This document shows positions 20,687-64,000 of a stretch of DNA of 64,000 bases, piece after piece. Position numbers and translations under genes: made by a program. The notes beneath the pieces were generated by a model, which was not told the origin of the DNA, searched no databases, and worked only from the letters and a program-made list of their open reading frames with translations. The stretch is taken from NCBI GenBank assembly GCA_958295915.1, contig OY282381.1, forward strand, positions 3,432,722-3,496,721. Reading direction: 5' to 3'. This stretch comes from an uncultured Caldilineaceae bacterium. GTDB lineage: Bacteria; Chloroflexota; Anaerolineae; Caldilineales; Caldilineaceae. Every line of letters begins with the position of its first letter. The stretch's first letter is position 1.

Positions 20687-21811
20687 CTAACCTGTGAAGT
20701 CTTCCTCGCGCATCCAGCAGCCTCGAATATAGGACTTTGGCGCCGCGTCGCGGTGATGATAGACGCAGAAAATCTCACCGTCCTCGAACTGAACCCACCC
20801 ACTGTATCCGTAGTCGCCTGGCGACTCACTACCGTCATGCTCCAGTTCCAGAAAGCGCGACTCGCCTCCCGCCCCTTCCAACCCTGCCAAGTCGCCAAGC
20901 CAGGCCCACGTGCCAGTTCGGGCTGAGCGCGCCGCAGGTCTTGCGCATCGTGCGAAGCCCGAATCATGACGGCCCGCCTTATTCAGCTTCACTTCCCCAG
21001 GGGCCGGCTCCACATTGCGATAGATGACCAGCAGCCGACCACTCGCCAGCAAGCCGGCAGCCGGGCGATCACCGTAGAAAGGCGTGGGACGCGGCGTTGA
21101 CCAGGTGTATCCTTCGTCCTCGGAGAGGACATAGTGCGAAGGGCGCGTTGTGTGTACGTTTTCACGCATCACACACAGCAGCCGGCCATCTGGCAAGCGG
21201 ATAACCGACGGCTCGTCATGTTGATAGCCATCCTGTTCTGCCGCCAGGGCGCTAAGCGGCCAGGTGCGGCCACCATCAAAGGAGTGTACCGCGTGCAACC
21301 GAAAGGCGCCGGGAAAACGGATGCTCCAATATGCGATGGCGATGAGCCAGTGATCGGCCGTCAGCGCCAGTATCTTGTCCGGACAGATTCCCTGAACCTC
21401 CGTCAAGTGGCGCTCCGTCCATGTCTGACCCTCATCCTCGCTGAACCAGAGAAAGGTCTGGGAAGACAGCCGGCTCTGCGGCCAATCCCAGTGGTTGGCC
21501 TCGTCCGGAAAGATGAAGGCATCGAAGTTTGCGACGATCCGGCCATCCTGCAGCCGGCCGATACGCGGCGCGTTCCAGATGGCGCGGTCCTCGGCAAATG
21601 AGTACCTGATGTCCAGTTGGCGCGGGTTGACCCAGGTGTGACCGCGGTCAACGCTCTCGATGAGCATGGTCCGCGACGTACTGGCCACGTGAAGATCCGA
21701 CTCTCGGTAGATACATAGGAGTTTGCCGCATGGCAACAGGCAGATGTCGGGAAATGCCTCGTAGATGGTATCGTCACGCGCGATGGTTACGTGGCGCAAG
21801 CTGTCTGTCAT
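20687..21811 (-). CDS. BNR/sialidase-fold protein
   Basis: A 374-residue protein with four Asp-box repeats (SVDRGHTW, SEDEGQTW, SFDGGRTW, SEDEGYTW), the hallmark of six-bladed sialidase-type propellers. An N-terminal FPDICLLPCGKLLCIYRES and two arginine-rich blade strands are compatible with an exo-alpha-sialidase-like fold. There is no signal peptide, so it is probably cytoplasmic or not a classical sialidase. A stretch around residues 280-320 (KLNKAGRHDSGFARCARPAA) looks low-complexity and may be a local insertion or frame disturbance. Its ATG overlaps the upstream aldolase TGA (ATGA). The substrate is unknown. Confidence 0.75.
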   Translation of the reverse strand: MTDSLRHVTIARDDTIYEAFPDICLLPCGKLLCIYRESDLHVASTSRTMLIESVDRGHTWVNPRQLDIRYSFAEDRAIWNAPRIGRLQDGRIVANFDAFIFPDEANHWDWPQSRLSSQTFLWFSEDEGQTWTERHLTEVQGICPDKILALTADHWLIAIAYWSIRFPGAFRLHAVHSFDGGRTWPLSALAAEQDGYQHDEPSVIRLPDGRLLCVMRENVHTTRPSHYVLSEDEGYTWSTPRPTPFYGDRPAAGLLASGRLLVIYRNVEPAPGEVKLNKAGRHDSGFARCARPAARSARTGTWAWLGDLAGLEGAGGESRFLELEHDGSESPGDYGYSGWVQFEDGEIFCVYHHRDAAPKSYIRGCWMREEDFTG

Positions 21812-22605
21812 TGTGATAGCCCCAGAGTGTCTATGATTGTCTTGAACGCCTCTCTCATGTGCCGATAATCAGCCTCAAGGTGGTCCAAATCAAAGCCGGC
21901 TAATAGCAACCGATACCCTTCCTGTATGCGCGCCGCCAGCATCTCTGGCGTCAAGGCAACGGCGGCGGCTGCTTTGCCGGCCTTCTGGCACGCGTCAACC
22001 ACGTGTTCCAATTCGCTCTGAATATTGGCGTGAGCGGTGTACTCGTCCGACTCCCGACCGAGCCGCAACGACAGATCACGGTGGCCGACGAACAACGCGT
22101 CCACGCCAGGAACCCCGGCAATGGCTTCAGCGTTCTCGACCCCCTCGGGCGTTTCAATCATCATGACCGTCATGATGCGCTTATTCCATTCACTCAAGTC
22201 TTCCTCAACCCGTTCCATGCGGATGGCGCCAAACGAGCGCTTGCCGAAGGGTGGATAGTAACAGCGGGACACGATCTCTTCCGCCTGTTCCGCTGTATCC
22301 ACAATGGGCACGATGATCCCCTCGGCGCCTGTGTCGAGCAGCCGTTCGATCGTGCCGCCCTCATGCGTCCAGGTTCGGACCAGCACCGGTATCCTCATCC
22401 CATACGCTGTGCGGACGCCATGCGCCAGGGTCTGCCAATCCGAGTGGGTGTGCTGGGCCTCCCACCAGATCCAGTCCATGTCGACAGCCGTATACTCTAT
22501 CACATCGGGCGAGCCGGAAAAGATGCCAGCCCCGATCAGATGCTGGCCGGCGGCCAAGCGCTGCTTCAGATGCATTTCATCTCTCTCAATCCGAAACCTT
22601 TGCAT
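21808..22605 (-). CDS. HpcH/HpaI aldolase family protein
   Basis: About 265 residues, a second member of the HpcH/HpaI class II aldolase family. Visible features are WIWWEAQHTH (in place of the usual D-x-E-H), IPVLVRTW (Arg), DTGAEGIIVPIVDTAEQAEE, CYYPPFGKRSFG, MMIETPEGVEN (metal Glu) and FVGHRDLSLRLG (metal Asp). The active-site His is shifted to QHTH, so the substrate may differ from that of the aldolase at 1145. ATG 22605 was chosen because homology starts there; the ribosome site is poor. It is the first gene of the five-gene overlapping operon ending at 17576. Confidence 0.88.
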   Translation of the reverse strand: MQRFRIERDEMHLKQRLAAGQHLIGAGIFSGSPDVIEYTAVDMDWIWWEAQHTHSDWQTLAHGVRTAYGMRIPVLVRTWTHEGGTIERLLDTGAEGIIVPIVDTAEQAEEIVSRCYYPPFGKRSFGAIRMERVEEDLSEWNKRIMTVMMIETPEGVENAEAIAGVPGVDALFVGHRDLSLRLGRESDEYTAHANIQSELEHVVDACQKAGKAAAAVALTPEMLAARIQEGYRLLLAGFDLDHLEADYRHMREAFKTIIDTLGLSQ

Positions 22606-22686
22606 TGCAGGTGAGCGTACCACATGTGGGGGTGGCCAACAAGCAGCGGCCTCGGCCACGCCTCGTTGGTCTGAGCCAAAGCATCA

Positions 22687-22880
22687 TCAGTACGTGGCTA
22701 TGTTGAGCATGGCCTGTTCCTCAGGCGTCAGGGCCGCGATCTGCGCTTCGCTCATGCCCCGAAAGTGGGTATTCGGCGGAATGCCAGCCTCCAGCCCCCA
22801 CATCCACAGGCTCCTCTTCCGTCATCGTCGCCCGGACCTCCGCCGACATATAGCCATCCCGTTCCAGTTCGACTGTGTGT
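22687..22880 (-). pseudogene. Unrecognised gene fragment with frameshift
   Basis: On the minus strand one frame encodes VELERDGYMSAEVRATMTEE and a neighbouring frame continues GIPPNTHFRGMSEAQIAALT to a TGA at 22687-22689. Both look like real protein rather than chance coding, so this is probably a broken or 5'-truncated gene. I do not recognise the family. It fills most of the 326-base gap between the aldolase start and the efflux adaptor. Confidence 0.4.
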
Positions 22881-22931
22881 CGATCGATATCGAAGGGCGC
22901 TTATGCCTCATTCACTGCTTGTTGACAGAAC

Positions 22932-24140
22932 CTAGCGTTCAAATATCTGCTCGTTCTCTTCCAGGCCGGCCAGCACTTCTGTTCGCTCACCATCTGTCAC
23001 GCCCAGCGTGATGTCGACTTCCAGCGTGCGCTCACCGTCTTTGACCAGCACGTAGCGCCGGTTGAAATAGCTGTGAATCGTGACATTGGGAATGGTCAGC
23101 GCATCCTCCTTTTTCTCCACAACGATGCGCATATCGGCCAACGAGCCGATCTCCAGGTCCAGGTCGGGCGCCGTGAATTCAATCCGAATGGGCAACCCTT
23201 CATCCGTGCCATCAGCGCGGGCTGGCGTTGAGACCTGAATGAGTTTGCCCGTCACCTCGCGCTGTGGATAGTCACGGAAGACAATGGTCACTGTCTGGCC
23301 GAGTCGCAACTTCGGCGCCTCCTCCTCGCTGGGCAGCGAACTTCTGACCTCCAGGGCGTCAGGCGCCGCCAGACCCATGACGGGCACATATTCTGCGATC
23401 ATCTGTCCAATTTCACCATCTGTGTAACGCACCACTCCGTTGAAGGGCGCCAGCAACCGCGTCTGCTCGATGCGAGCCTGGAGCATGTCCACATCGATCG
23501 CCATGAACTCGACCTCCGCCTCTAAGAGAGCCATTTCGCGGTCATGTTGCTCTGTCAACAGCTTCAATTTAGTCTCAGCCGTTTCAACCGCCAGCTCTTG
23601 GCGCACGATGGCGTGCTCTTCTGCATCAGGATTTACAGGGTTTGAGGATGCGCGCGCTTGCTCCAACTGCAGCCTGGCGAGTTCAAGGGCTGCCTGAGCA
23701 TCAGCCAATGTCAAAGATCTGGACCCCTCGGCCGCGCTCAGCCGCAGTCTGGCTATCTCCAGCTGCTTTTGCGCCTTGGCCAGCTCATGCGGCAGAAAGC
23801 CAACATCCAGCTCTGCCAATACCTGTCCCGCTTCCACTGGACCGCCTGGCTGGACACGAAACCCGTTCAGGCGGCCACCGATGCGGAAGGAGAGATTCAC
23901 CCGTCGCTGCGAGTCCACAATCCCTAACAGCGTCACGCTATCGATGATATCGCCGCGTTCAACGCGATAGACCGCTTTGGGGAGGGGAACAGGTGTGGGA
24001 ATGGGTGTGGGCGTAACCAATACGTCGCCGGGAAGCTGTTCACAGGCCGCCAGGGCCGTGGCCAGGGTCAGCAGCCAGACAACCAGCCAGTAGCCAGTAG
24101 CCAGTACTGGCCACTGGGAACTTCCCACTGCAGTTCTCAC
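22932..24140 (-). CDS. Efflux RND/MacA-type periplasmic adaptor lipoprotein
   Basis: A 402-residue membrane fusion protein. A hydrophobic N-terminus ending ALAAC gives a lipoprotein signal. Then come a barrel-sandwich half (GRLNGFRVQPGGPVEAGQVL), a long alpha-helical hairpin (about residues 125-215, KAQKQLEIARLRLSAAEG through LLEAEVEFMAIDVDML), the second lipoyl-like half (APFNGVVRYTDGEIGQMI), a beta-barrel and a membrane-proximal domain. Such adaptors link an inner-membrane ABC or RND pump to the outside. No pump gene is adjacent on this strand. The start is GTG 24140, and the residues of the signal stretch (WPVLATGYWLVVWL) are encoded by a repeat of family C. Confidence 0.85.
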   Translation of the reverse strand: MRTAVGSSQWPVLATGYWLVVWLLTLATALAACEQLPGDVLVTPTPIPTPVPLPKAVYRVERGDIIDSVTLLGIVDSQRRVNLSFRIGGRLNGFRVQPGGPVEAGQVLAELDVGFLPHELAKAQKQLEIARLRLSAAEGSRSLTLADAQAALELARLQLEQARASSNPVNPDAEEHAIVRQELAVETAETKLKLLTEQHDREMALLEAEVEFMAIDVDMLQARIEQTRLLAPFNGVVRYTDGEIGQMIAEYVPVMGLAAPDALEVRSSLPSEEEAPKLRLGQTVTIVFRDYPQREVTGKLIQVSTPARADGTDEGLPIRIEFTAPDLDLEIGSLADMRIVVEKKEDALTIPNVTIHSYFNRRYVLVKDGERTLEVDITLGVTDGERTEVLAGLEENEQIFER

Positions 24141-24161: not shown

Positions 24162-25235
24162 TTACACGATTTCATCAGGTCTGACCTCGCGGCCCTCTTG
24201 CGCAGATAGCTGTGCAGCGCGGCAGAACTGGAGCGCCGCCTTCCCCTCCTCGCCGCTGAGCGGCGACTGCCGCCCTTCAGATATGGCATCGACGAAGTCA
24301 TGCACGCCGGCGACGAAGCTGGCGCCCCAGTCCGAATCCACGTTGGAGAACTGCGTGGTTTTCCCGTCCCTGTACATCTCCACTGGCGGCCTATCCAGCA
24401 GCATTGAGGTGCATCGGTTTATCCAAATAAAGCCGTGGGAGCCGGTCAGCTCGACCCACTCGTCTTCCGGGCGCCCGTATTTGGAGGGCACCAGTATGTC
24501 ATCAGAGGTTATCGCCTCGTAGGAGCCGTACTTTTCGGCGTTTTGGTACTTCCAGATGACGACCGCCGGGCTATCGAGCATCCATCCATGCTGTATAGGA
24601 CGGTATGTTATCCAGGCGAATACCTTTTCCACCGCGCCCAGGTACCACATGGCGATAGAGAAAAGATGATAGCCGTAATCGAAGATAACCCGACCGCCGC
24701 CGCTCTGAGCAGGGTCGAAGCGCCATACCCAGCGCCTGTAGGGTATCTCCCAGTCTTCTCCCGTGGTGCCCTGCACACACTTGATACGTATGGAAAGCGG
24801 CTCGCCAATGGCGCCGGCCTCGAGCAGATCCTTGGCTTTCACCAGGGGTGGGTAGAAGCGGAAGTTTTCGAACACGCGCAACAGCTTGCGCGCGCGTCGG
24901 GCCGCCTTGATGAGCGCATCGCACTCGGCAACATTGATCGCCATCGGCTTCTGCACGGAGACGTGCTTGCCCGCCTCCAGCGCGGCGATACCCATCTCGG
25001 CGTGCAGATGGTGGGGTGTGATGACCTCCACCGCGTCCACGTCGGGGTCGGCGAGCAACGCCCGGTAATCGGTGTATCTCTTCTCGACTTGCCAGTCGCT
25101 GGCTCGCCTCTGGAGCAGATCTTCATCTACATCGCAAATGGCGTAGAGCGCTGCTTTGGGGTTGTCCTTGTAGCCCAGGTAGTGCAGATCGGTAATGGCG
25201 CCCGCGCCTATGAAGCCCACGCGTAGCTTTCTCAT
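24162..25235 (-). CDS. Gfo/Idh/MocA family oxidoreductase
   Basis: A 357-residue NAD(P)-dependent oxidoreductase. The N-terminal Rossmann loop is VGFIGAGAITDLHYLGY; VITPHHLHAEMGIAALEAGKHVSVQKPMA contains the conserved Glu/Gln-Lys-Pro (here QKP), and IFDYGYHLFSIAMWYLG supplies the catalytic-region histidine. These enzymes oxidise or reduce sugars, inositols and related rings in the cytoplasm. The ATG at 25235 overlaps the TGA of the upstream TPP enzyme by four bases (ATGA). The QKP in place of the commoner EKP is a small oddity. The substrate is unknown. Confidence 0.9.
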   Translation of the reverse strand: MRKLRVGFIGAGAITDLHYLGYKDNPKAALYAICDVDEDLLQRRASDWQVEKRYTDYRALLADPDVDAVEVITPHHLHAEMGIAALEAGKHVSVQKPMAINVAECDALIKAARRARKLLRVFENFRFYPPLVKAKDLLEAGAIGEPLSIRIKCVQGTTGEDWEIPYRRWVWRFDPAQSGGGRVIFDYGYHLFSIAMWYLGAVEKVFAWITYRPIQHGWMLDSPAVVIWKYQNAEKYGSYEAITSDDILVPSKYGRPEDEWVELTGSHGFIWINRCTSMLLDRPPVEMYRDGKTTQFSNVDSDWGASFVAGVHDFVDAISEGRQSPLSGEEGKAALQFCRAAQLSAQEGREVRPDEIV

Positions 25236-26935
25236 CGTTCTGTCTCGGCGTCGAACATCCGCGCCGAAGGTTCCATCACCGGCCACGGCATCGGTCCTGG
25301 CACTTCGATCAATGTGATCCTGTCTGCCGCGATCGCCTCTGCAACCGTCGGGCCGAGTTGATCCATGGCTGTGACTCGGCGGCCGTCAACACCGAACGCC
25401 TGGGCGAGCGCCATAAAGTCCGGATTCACAAGGTCAACAGCGTGCGTGCGCCCGTAGCGCGCCTCCTGCTGCGGCCGCAGGACACCGTAGGCGTTGTCGT
25501 TGAAGACCAGTACCACGATCGGCACGTCAAACTGCACGGCGACCGCCAGTTCCTGGCAGTTGAACAGAAAGCCGCCATCGCCTGAAAGGACAACTACCGG
25601 GCGCTCTGGCCGCGCCAGCTTTGCGCCGATCGCCGCCGGCATGCCAAAGCCCAGCGTGCAGAAACCCCATGGGTATACGTTCGTGCGCGGCTCGTATATA
25701 TCGAGCAACCGCCGACACCAGTAAGCGGCTACGGTCAGATCGCTCACGACGACCGTCTCGCGCGGCAGGGCAGCCCGCAGTGTGCGCACGAGTTCTACGC
25801 CTTCGGGCGCACGCGCATGACAGTAGCGCAAAATATCTTGCCGCAGTTTGGCGACATCCTCGCGCCTTTTTGTAGGGGCGCCCATCGCGCCCCACTGTGG
25901 CGCGCAAAACGATCTTGTGGTTGCCCAGCTGCCCAGCTTCTGCGCCTCCCGCAACTGCGCGTTGATCTGTCGCAACGACGCACGCGCATCCCCCACAACA
26001 CCGACCGCCGCCGGGTAATTGCGGTCGATTTCCTCTCGATCTACGTCGATGTGAATCAGTGAGGCCGGCAGGCGCAGGGCCCAGCGCTCCGTTTCCTCTT
26101 CCGTAAAGCGCGTGCCGACGGCCAGCATAACATCACATTCGGCGAGAAATTCGCGGGCCGCGGGATGCAGGATCACGCTCCCGGCGGACAGTGGATGATC
26201 GTCCGCAATCGCGCCCTTTCCCAGCACCGTGGTGAAGATCGGCGTTTGCATGCGCTCGGCCAGCTGCCGCAGCTCGTCGCTGGCGTCGCTGGTGATCACG
26301 CCGCCGCCCGCCCAGATGACGGGACGCCGGGCCGCTTTTAACAGCGCGACGGCCCGGTCGATCTGGTCCGCATCCGGCGCCAGACGACGCGCTACAGCCG
26401 CTTCGGGGATTGTCACGTCGTCACTGGCATCCAGCGCATCGCACGGAACTTCAACTGCCGCCGGGCGTGGTCGGTCAGTTTGCATGCGCGCAAACGCCTC
26501 CCGCATGACGCCGGGGATCGAGCGCACCGTGTCAGCGCGTGCGCACCATTTTGTCACCGCGCGAAAGCCGCCCAACTGGTCGCGACACTCGTGCAGAAAC
26601 CCCTTGTCCAGACCGATCCCGGCCGCAGGGATCTGGCTGGCAATGCACAGCACGGGTGACGAATCGCTGAAGGCCGTCCCGAGCGAGGCCAGGGTATTGA
26701 GGGCGGCAGGTCCAGTAGTGCTCAGGCACACACCGACCCGACCGCTGGCCCGGGCGTAGCCGTCGGCCATGAAGGCGGCGCCCTGTTCATGGCGCGCGAC
26801 GATGTGCCGGATACTGCCGGCATCGCCTAGCGCGTCATACACAGCCAGATTATGGGTGCCCGGAATGCCGAACACCATGTTGACATTATGCGCTGTCAGA
26901 GAACGAACGACAGCTTCACCACCGGTCATGCGCAT
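25232..26935 (-). CDS. Thiamine-pyrophosphate enzyme, acetolactate-synthase-like, with an in-frame repeat insertion
   Basis: A 567-residue three-domain TPP enzyme. The N-domain has FGIPGTHNLAVYDAL and the catalytic Glu50 in ARHEQGAAFMADGYAR. The middle domain has RPVIWAGGGVITSD. The C-domain has the TPP-Mg motif GDGGFLFN...NDNAYG. Members decarboxylate or carboligate 2-keto acids (acetolactate synthase, oxalyl-CoA decarboxylase and similar). In the linker between middle and C-terminal domains, roughly residues 333-355 (GSWATTRSFCAPQWGAMGAP) are encoded by a long copy of repeat B without breaking the frame. ATG 26935 has AAAGGAG ten bases upstream. It is coupled to the Gfo/Idh gene. Confidence 0.9.
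   Translation of the reverse strand: MRMTGGEAVVRSLTAHNVNMVFGIPGTHNLAVYDALGDAGSIRHIVARHEQGAAFMADGYARASGRVGVCLSTTGPAALNTLASLGTAFSDSSPVLCIASQIPAAGIGLDKGFLHECRDQLGGFRAVTKWCARADTVRSIPGVMREAFARMQTDRPRPAAVEVPCDALDASDDVTIPEAAVARRLAPDADQIDRAVALLKAARRPVIWAGGGVITSDASDELRQLAERMQTPIFTTVLGKGAIADDHPLSAGSVILHPAAREFLAECDVMLAVGTRFTEEETERWALRLPASLIHIDVDREEIDRNYPAAVGVVGDARASLRQINAQLREAQKLGSWATTRSFCAPQWGAMGAPTKRREDVAKLRQDILRYCHARAPEGVELVRTLRAALPRETVVVSDLTVAAYWCRRLLDIYEPRTNVYPWGFCTLGFGMPAAIGAKLARPERPVVVLSGDGGFLFNCQELAVAVQFDVPIVVLVFNDNAYGVLRPQQEARYGRTHAVDLVNPDFMALAQAFGVDGRRVTAMDQLGPTVAEAIAADRITLIEVPGPMPWPVMEPSARMFDAETER
25872..25937. repeat. Palindromic element B, long version, inside the TPP enzyme gene
   Basis: TGTAGGGGCGCCCATCGCGC, CCCACTGTGGCGCGCAAAAC and CTTGTGGTTGCCCAG match the intergenic block at 27921-27978 almost base for base. 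Here the block lies inside an open coding region. Confidence 0.85.
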
Positions 26936-27920: not shown

Positions 27921-27978
27921 GGTAGGAACAACCATCGCGCCCCACTGTGGCGCGCAAAACAACCTTGTGGTTGCCCAG
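27921..27978. repeat. Palindromic element B, long version, intergenic
   Basis: ATCGCGCCCCACTGTGGCGC with the flanks AACAACCTTGTGGTTGCCCA matches the insertion in the TPP enzyme gene. It is followed directly by a family D unit. Confidence 0.85.
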
Positions 27979-28005
27979 GGGCCGGCGCAAGACGCCGACC
28001 CTACT
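27979..28005. repeat. Repeat family D, copy 1
   Basis: GGCCGGCGCAAGACGCCGAC with CCTACT; the CAAGACGCCGACCCTAC core recurs at 34783-34800, there too next to TTGCCCAG. Confidence 0.6.
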
Positions 28006-46328: not shown

Positions 46329-46391
46329 TGTCGCGCCCAACAGTGGCGCGCAGTGCAACCTTGTCGCGCCCAACAGTGGCGCGCAGTGCAA
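46329..46391. repeat. Tandem pair of palindromic element B
   Basis: TGTCGCGCCCAACAGTGGCG CGCAGTGCAA occurs at 46329-46358 and again at 46362-46391, a 33-base period, ending 22 bases before the Gfo/Idh start. Confidence 0.9.
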
Positions 46392-62410: not shown

Positions 62411-62523
62411 CGCTCGCATAGCGTGCAGCCAACTATCCGCCTGGATGCGCCCGCAGTACCTCCTCCACAATCTCTACGCCCCAACCCGGCCCGGCGGGAA
62501 GGTCATATACCCGCCGATGATTT
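62411..62523. repeat. Duplicated 113-base segment, copy 1
   Basis: GCTCGCATAGCGTGCAGCCA and the following sequence through CCGCCGATGATTTCAG match 63888-64000 except for a few substitutions and small indel differences. The segment covers the 3' end of a mandelate-racemase-family gene and 22 bases beyond. Confidence 0.9.
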
Positions 62524-63872: not shown

Positions 63873-63887
63873 GAAGGCTAAACAGCT

Positions 63888-64000
63888 CGCATAGCGTGCA
63901 GCCAACTATCCGCCTGGATGCGCGCGCAGTGCCTCCTCCACAATCTCTGTGCCCCAACCTGGCCCGGAGGGAATGGTCATATACCCGCCGATGATTTCAG
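63888..64000. repeat. Duplicated 113-base segment, copy 2
   Basis: Second copy of the segment at 62411-62523; it runs off the window end, so the duplication may be longer. Confidence 0.9.
63906..64000 (-). CDS. Mandelate racemase/enolase-superfamily protein, C-terminal end (partial)
   Basis: The minus frame encodes EIIGGYMTIPSGPGWGTEIV then EEALRAHPGG and a TAG at 63906-63908. This is the usual ending of mandelate racemase/muconate cycloisomerase-type sugar-acid dehydratases. Unlike the copy at 62433 the frame is intact here, so this is probably the functional gene; the rest is outside the window. Confidence 0.75.
   Translation of the reverse strand, partial: EIIGGYMTIPSGPGWGTEIVEEALRAHPGG

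Follow-up and report, generated by a model that had tools for sequence, protein, structure and literature searches.

Most REPs lie between genes, and intragenic REPs are known from several species (PMC3733652). Mobilisation of GTAG REPs by RAYT (Y1) transposases has been proposed, and Chloroflexi are already among the carriers of GTAG repeats (PMC3733652). The same 2013 survey noted that some species with REPs may lack RAYT genes (PMC3733652), so that the presence of RAYT is to be regarded as typical, not strictly defining, of GTAG REPs. In Rickettsia, palindromic repeats are found in frame within genes, and a guanylate kinase (gmk) that carries such a repeat is active with the repeat translated (PMC2229807; PMC10969869). 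In-frame palindromic repeats are already established in Rickettsia and in other bacteria; what is distinctive about the locus reported here is its nested structure and the missing transposase. In the open-licence literature we found no description of in-frame palindromic repeats in Caldilineaceae.

The window, a stretch of 64,000 nucleotides from an uncultured Caldilineaceae bacterium, carries such a repeat in the gene of a TPP-dependent enzyme. Like the intragenic GTAG/CGTC REPs (BMC Genomics 2013, PMC3733652), the repeat has a GTAG hairpin, forms dimers and is mainly intergenic, with some copies in ORFs, single or grouped, that code for about 20-30 residues. Unlike them, its REP loop contains a second palindrome family, and a search of 17 genomes of the genus for a Y1/RAYT transposase was negative. 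It shares with the palindromic elements of Rickettsia (Ogata et al. 2000, 2002; relayed in PMC2229807 and PMC10969869) the picture of selfish palindromic DNA placed in frame in many unrelated conserved genes with function kept, but verified genic copies are far fewer here. According to the same relayed accounts, those elements (RPEs) measure about 105-150 bp and are of another sequence type, whereas the element described here has 57 bp, and the REP-type RPEs of R. conorii are CGTC-tagged whereas the present element begins with GTAG, which sets the two apart by tag and by description. The element behaves as a protein-coding palindromic element of the Rickettsia type, lying in frame in conserved genes whose orthologues are without the copy. 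Among bacterial MITEs, ERIC, Correia (107 bp) and YPAL have open frames (PMC2229807); short and non-autonomous, they likewise form in-frame fusions with ORFs of the host, but MITE-type terminal inverted repeats with a TA target duplication were not recognised here.

Insertion in the linker of the TPP-dependent enzyme

25232 to 26935, minus strand: gene for a TPP-dependent enzyme of 567 aa (ORF, Pfam and NCBIfam profiles)
25872 to 25928, plus strand: inserted composite palindromic repeat of 57 bp, missing from all orthologues and sharing its junctions with the repeat family

The Pfam domains TPP_enzyme_N, M and C were detected at residues 3-121, 192-323 and 404-545, respectively (E 1e-40 to 1e-42), and the 567 codons contain no stop and no frameshift, all three domains being complete. 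The best NCBIfam model, PRK08266, reached 504.5 bits where 571 are required; as this score is below the cut-off, the enzyme is named only to the level of the acetolactate synthase superfamily and no substrate is assigned. Read on the minus strand, the repeat supplies 19 extra codons, about W337-T355, between the M and C domains, and the stretch of the protein that spans it is WATTRSFCAPQWGAMGAPTK.

The repeat had been recognised in an earlier, sequence-only reading of this DNA, and its reality was borne out by the match of 25872-25933 to 27922-27983 with 87% identity. Furthermore, in a search of the whole genome (5.06 Mb), a 47-bp core was 96% identical to this neighbouring copy (E = 4e-15), and matches turned up at about 45 other places. 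The extent has to be corrected from the 66 bp (25872-25937) and about 20 residues originally given, since other full copies stop at the same base as 25928 (match to query bases 33-89), which leaves 57 bp and 19 codons. Compared to the family consensus, about 5 of the 57 sites are different in the TPP-gene copy, so that the insertion is not a fresh one.

Orthologues were searched in 16 other species of the genus. Full-length orthologues from 13 other species (543-546 aa, about 72-77% identity) are all without the segment, as are the 3′ fragments of the orthologue present in two congeners. Two distant orthologues from other phyla, of a Lentisphaeria MAG and a Fuerstiella MAG, likewise do not carry it, and since the segment is missing from these as well, the insertion represents the derived state. 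In the protein alignment residues 335-351 occur in this species alone, with rows L017 and L021 uninformative and one of the two, as L040, separately found to be without the segment. Deleting the 57 bp in silico kept the frame open and left the linker EAQKLGRKRREDVAK between QLR and LRQ, whose 15 residues correspond to the orthologue length; excision of exactly 57 bp thus gives the linker length of the orthologues, as expected for a 19-codon insertion. Taken together with the orthologues without the segment, this excludes an unrelated linker of equal length in the orthologues, the contrary outcome that the earlier reading had foreseen. An 8-bp tandem, GCTGGGCA, is found at one end of the insert only, and the linker DNA is too diverged among the species to place the empty site.

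The dN/dS ratio of the TPP gene against each congener was 0.13-0.17, a value that reflects mostly divergence older than the insertion. Intact domains and a low dN/dS fit a gene that is probably functional. In an AlphaFold2 model, which is weak (mean pLDDT 59, built from five sequences), residues 330-353 form a coil and pLDDT is below 50 over residues 332-365. This predicted low-confidence coil is consistent with a flexible linker. The proposal of an in-frame insertion tolerated in a linker, with the reading frame and the N, M and C domains left intact, is therefore supported by orthologues, domains and dN/dS, and the idea of new protein sequence made from a repeat holds for the predicted reading frame.

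Nested architecture of the element

25872 to 25883, plus strand: left arm of the outer GTAG-tagged REP, GTAGGGGCGCCC (consensus GTAGGGGCAACC)
25884 to 25913, plus strand: inner species-specific palindrome, about 33 bp (consensus ATCGCGCCCCACAGTGGCGCGCAAAACAAC)
25914 to 25928, plus strand: right arm of the outer GTAG REP, CTTGTGGTTGCCCAG

Alignment of the copies resolved the composite into GTAGGGGCAACC - ATCGCGCCCCACAGTGGCGCGCAAAACAAC - CTTGTGGTTGCCCAG. At L044:14783 and L054:13612 the outer parts are joined directly, as GTAGGGGCAACCCTTGTGGTTGCCCAG, in copies that are empty of the inner palindrome. The outer consensus, GTAG followed by GGGCAACC-CTTGT-GGTTGCCC, folds to an 8-bp stem with GTAG unpaired, and judged by sequence and predicted fold the outer element has the form of a GTAG-tagged REP. 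In the TPP copy GTAG is retained, and folding indicated a degraded stem. The inner palindrome begins with GTCG and has no fixed C ahead of it. Membership in a repeat family, as claimed under the name of a long B element, was confirmed by this analysis, but what had been taken for a single element is a composite in which one palindrome family is nested within another. The length of the composite (57 bp) is divisible by three. Only one frame of the six is interrupted by a stop codon, and the inner palindrome is open in all six. REP dimers in opposite orientation, read by eye, are located at 27922-28004, at genome position 2113044 and in L063 near 5969.

Recurrence in other genes

Genome 3565988 to 3569017 (L083): DEAD-box helicase with an in-frame insertion of about 40 residues
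Genome 21557 to 22960 (L076): CinA with an in-frame insertion of about 28 residues
Genome 3392943 to 3394385 (L006): GlpC-like Fe-S protein with an in-frame composite plus extra sequence

In-frame insertion thus recurs within one genome, in the TPP enzyme and at least three other genes. The three further loci were tested against the genus, and all aligned congeners are without the segments of the GlpC-like protein, CinA and the helicase, the flanks being conserved. The insertions in the three proteins sit in linkers or other variable stretches. That of the helicase contains, besides the inner palindrome, a member of a second palindrome family with the reading APLSSRGAFN. The other insert-bearing genes read the repeat of the TPP gene in different frames. 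These are orthologue-verified cases of selfish palindromic DNA turned coding, in a phylum with little documentation of the kind.

Several further copy-bearing loci fall in long open frames. Judged from open frames, candidate in-frame copies are present in a restriction/modification-like gene (L005:93-2948), a DNA adenine methylase-like gene (L071:1095-2072), a gene for an FtsL-like short protein (L085:1168-1896) and a gene for an unknown protein (L086:818-2038). L005 has a second repeat as well, which reads GNAGVPPAVASGT.

The position of the inner palindrome relative to coding sequence was evaluated in 60 stretches of 20 kb and the window (1.26 Mb in all, regions partly picked for holding copies). 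Clusters of the inner palindrome were found between in-register coding flanks in 8-10% of cases, compared to 35-41% of random sites. Clusters with flanks on the same strand were in register in 11-14 cases and out of register in 2-5, depending on which of four settings was used, and a strict coding test gave nine in-register clusters and one out-of-register cluster; the test rests on a simple codon model, and the out-of-register cases may represent spacers between adjacent genes. Genic depletion combined with register bias is the pattern predicted for purifying selection on insertions.

Origin and retention of the linker copy

27922 to 27978, plus strand: related composite copy, upstream of a minus-strand ABC-transporter permease gene
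27978 to 28004, minus strand: second GTAG-type REP in opposite orientation, GTAGGGTCGGCGTCTTGCGCCGGCCCC, which makes the intergenic site a REP dimer

The findings very probably reflect the insertion of a non-autonomous palindromic element after the species split and its toleration in the linker. The 57-bp element, a GTAG-tagged REP hairpin with a second, species-specific palindrome in its loop, would have entered the TPP gene once this species had separated from the sequenced congeners, presumably moving as a REP-type single-stranded hairpin unit. The element landed between the middle and C-terminal domains, in a linker of variable sequence, and the protein, longer there by 19 residues, probably still works. 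The protein would accordingly be made and active with its insert, and the insertion would be neutral. Retention would have been possible because little harm was done, as suggested by genic depletion, in-register bias and the linker or variable sites used in at least three other conserved proteins. The insertion is best read as an example of selfish palindromic DNA that linkers tolerate, comparable to intragenic REPs and to the palindromic elements of Rickettsia.

With an intergenic copy only 2 kb away, the linker copy might be a product of local duplication or gene conversion and not of dispersed movement of the family. The two copies are close together and share the less common ACTGTGG loop, which would favour such an origin. 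However, the TPP copy is as far from a copy at genome position 1305629 as it is from 27922-27978, with 6 differences in 57 sites in either comparison. The 1305629 copy shares with it both the ACTGTGG loop and the AACGA variant, whereas a GGAAC change is private to the 27922 copy, which also precedes a second REP without counterpart in the gene. We therefore consider a local origin unlikely. The near-identical neighbour at 27921-27978 described in the sequence-only reading is indeed related, but its special closeness did not withstand comparison with the equally near 1305629 copy. As a specific parent of the 25872 copy the 27922 copy was rejected, the 1305629 copy being equidistant; from the sequences compared it appears as one of several family members, not demonstrably the source.

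Two further explanations concern the reason why the insertion persists, and both appear very improbable compared to neutral toleration in the linker. The 19 residues might have been recruited, altering oligomerisation, regulation or a partner contact and being kept by positive selection. The copy is somewhat diverged from the consensus yet open and in frame, and the divergence ratio from the congeners is slightly higher for the TPP protein (1.77) than for the three other insert-bearing proteins (1.3-1.66). On the other hand, the residues merely follow the frame of the repeat, and other genes use different frames, as expected for tolerance and not for a useful peptide; the AlphaFold2 model gives an unstructured coil, and there is no second insert-bearing species in which conservation could show. 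Alternatively, the TPP gene might already be decaying and non-functional, so that an insertion is tolerated as nothing depends on the gene. This species does form the longest branch of the TPP gene tree (about 0.3 compared to a median of 0.049), and the genome contains 17 further matches to the TPP enzyme family, several of them full-length. Arguing against decay are the 567 codons without stop or frameshift, the three intact domains and the dN/dS of 0.13-0.17; moreover, the species stands apart in other genes too, being more distant also in the three other insert-bearing proteins.

Spread within the genus and mobilisation

Allowing up to 3 mismatches, 370 copies of the inner palindrome were counted in this genome (control 0), whereas two congeners have a single match each, with 3 mismatches, and the other 14 have none. 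The outer REP is present in all 17 genomes, with 64 copies here and 1-177 per genome in the 16 congeners (up to 3 mismatches; reversed-pattern control 0); with zero mismatches the outer pattern had one match only. As the REP is genus-wide and the inner palindrome species-restricted, an old REP holds in its loop a palindrome that multiplied here. The inner palindrome is found alone, in tandem arrays and within the composite; a search for it in viral contigs gave no match. Composites with identical junctions at several unrelated sites would fit dispersal of the composite as a unit, or the inner palindrome may have entered the same position of the REP loop repeatedly.

The search for a REP-type Y1 (RAYT) transposase with PF01797 was negative in this genome and its 16 congeners, whereas 5 of 14 controls were positive. 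Either the mobilising enzyme has been lost, or it is too divergent for the PF01797 model, or another route is in use. We tentatively suggest, as a possibility held with some doubt, that in this Chloroflexota lineage a species-specific palindrome burst rode inside an older GTAG REP without a recognisable Y1 transposase and wrote new linker peptides into conserved proteins, a Rickettsia-like situation outside the proteobacteria. The nesting, together with an inner palindrome so sharply confined to one species, provides a natural experiment on repeat spread without an obvious transposase, which also bears on where proteins accept random insertions.

Several other repeats were observed. Short tandem arrays of the inner palindrome with a period of about 31-38 bp occur at genome positions 2138373-2138470, 3637143-3637356 and 4024276-4024367 and in the window at 46331-46391. 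A second palindrome family, GCGCCTCTGCTCGAAAGAGGCGC, is present in both orientations in the window at 1001, 2748, 35084, 36298, 46242, 47507, 50632, 54090 and 57638, and a relative of it lies in frame within the helicase. Finally, an 89-bp direct repeat with 93% identity, showing no relation to the palindromes, is located at 62412-62500 and 63885-63973 of the window, the two copies being 1.47 kb apart.
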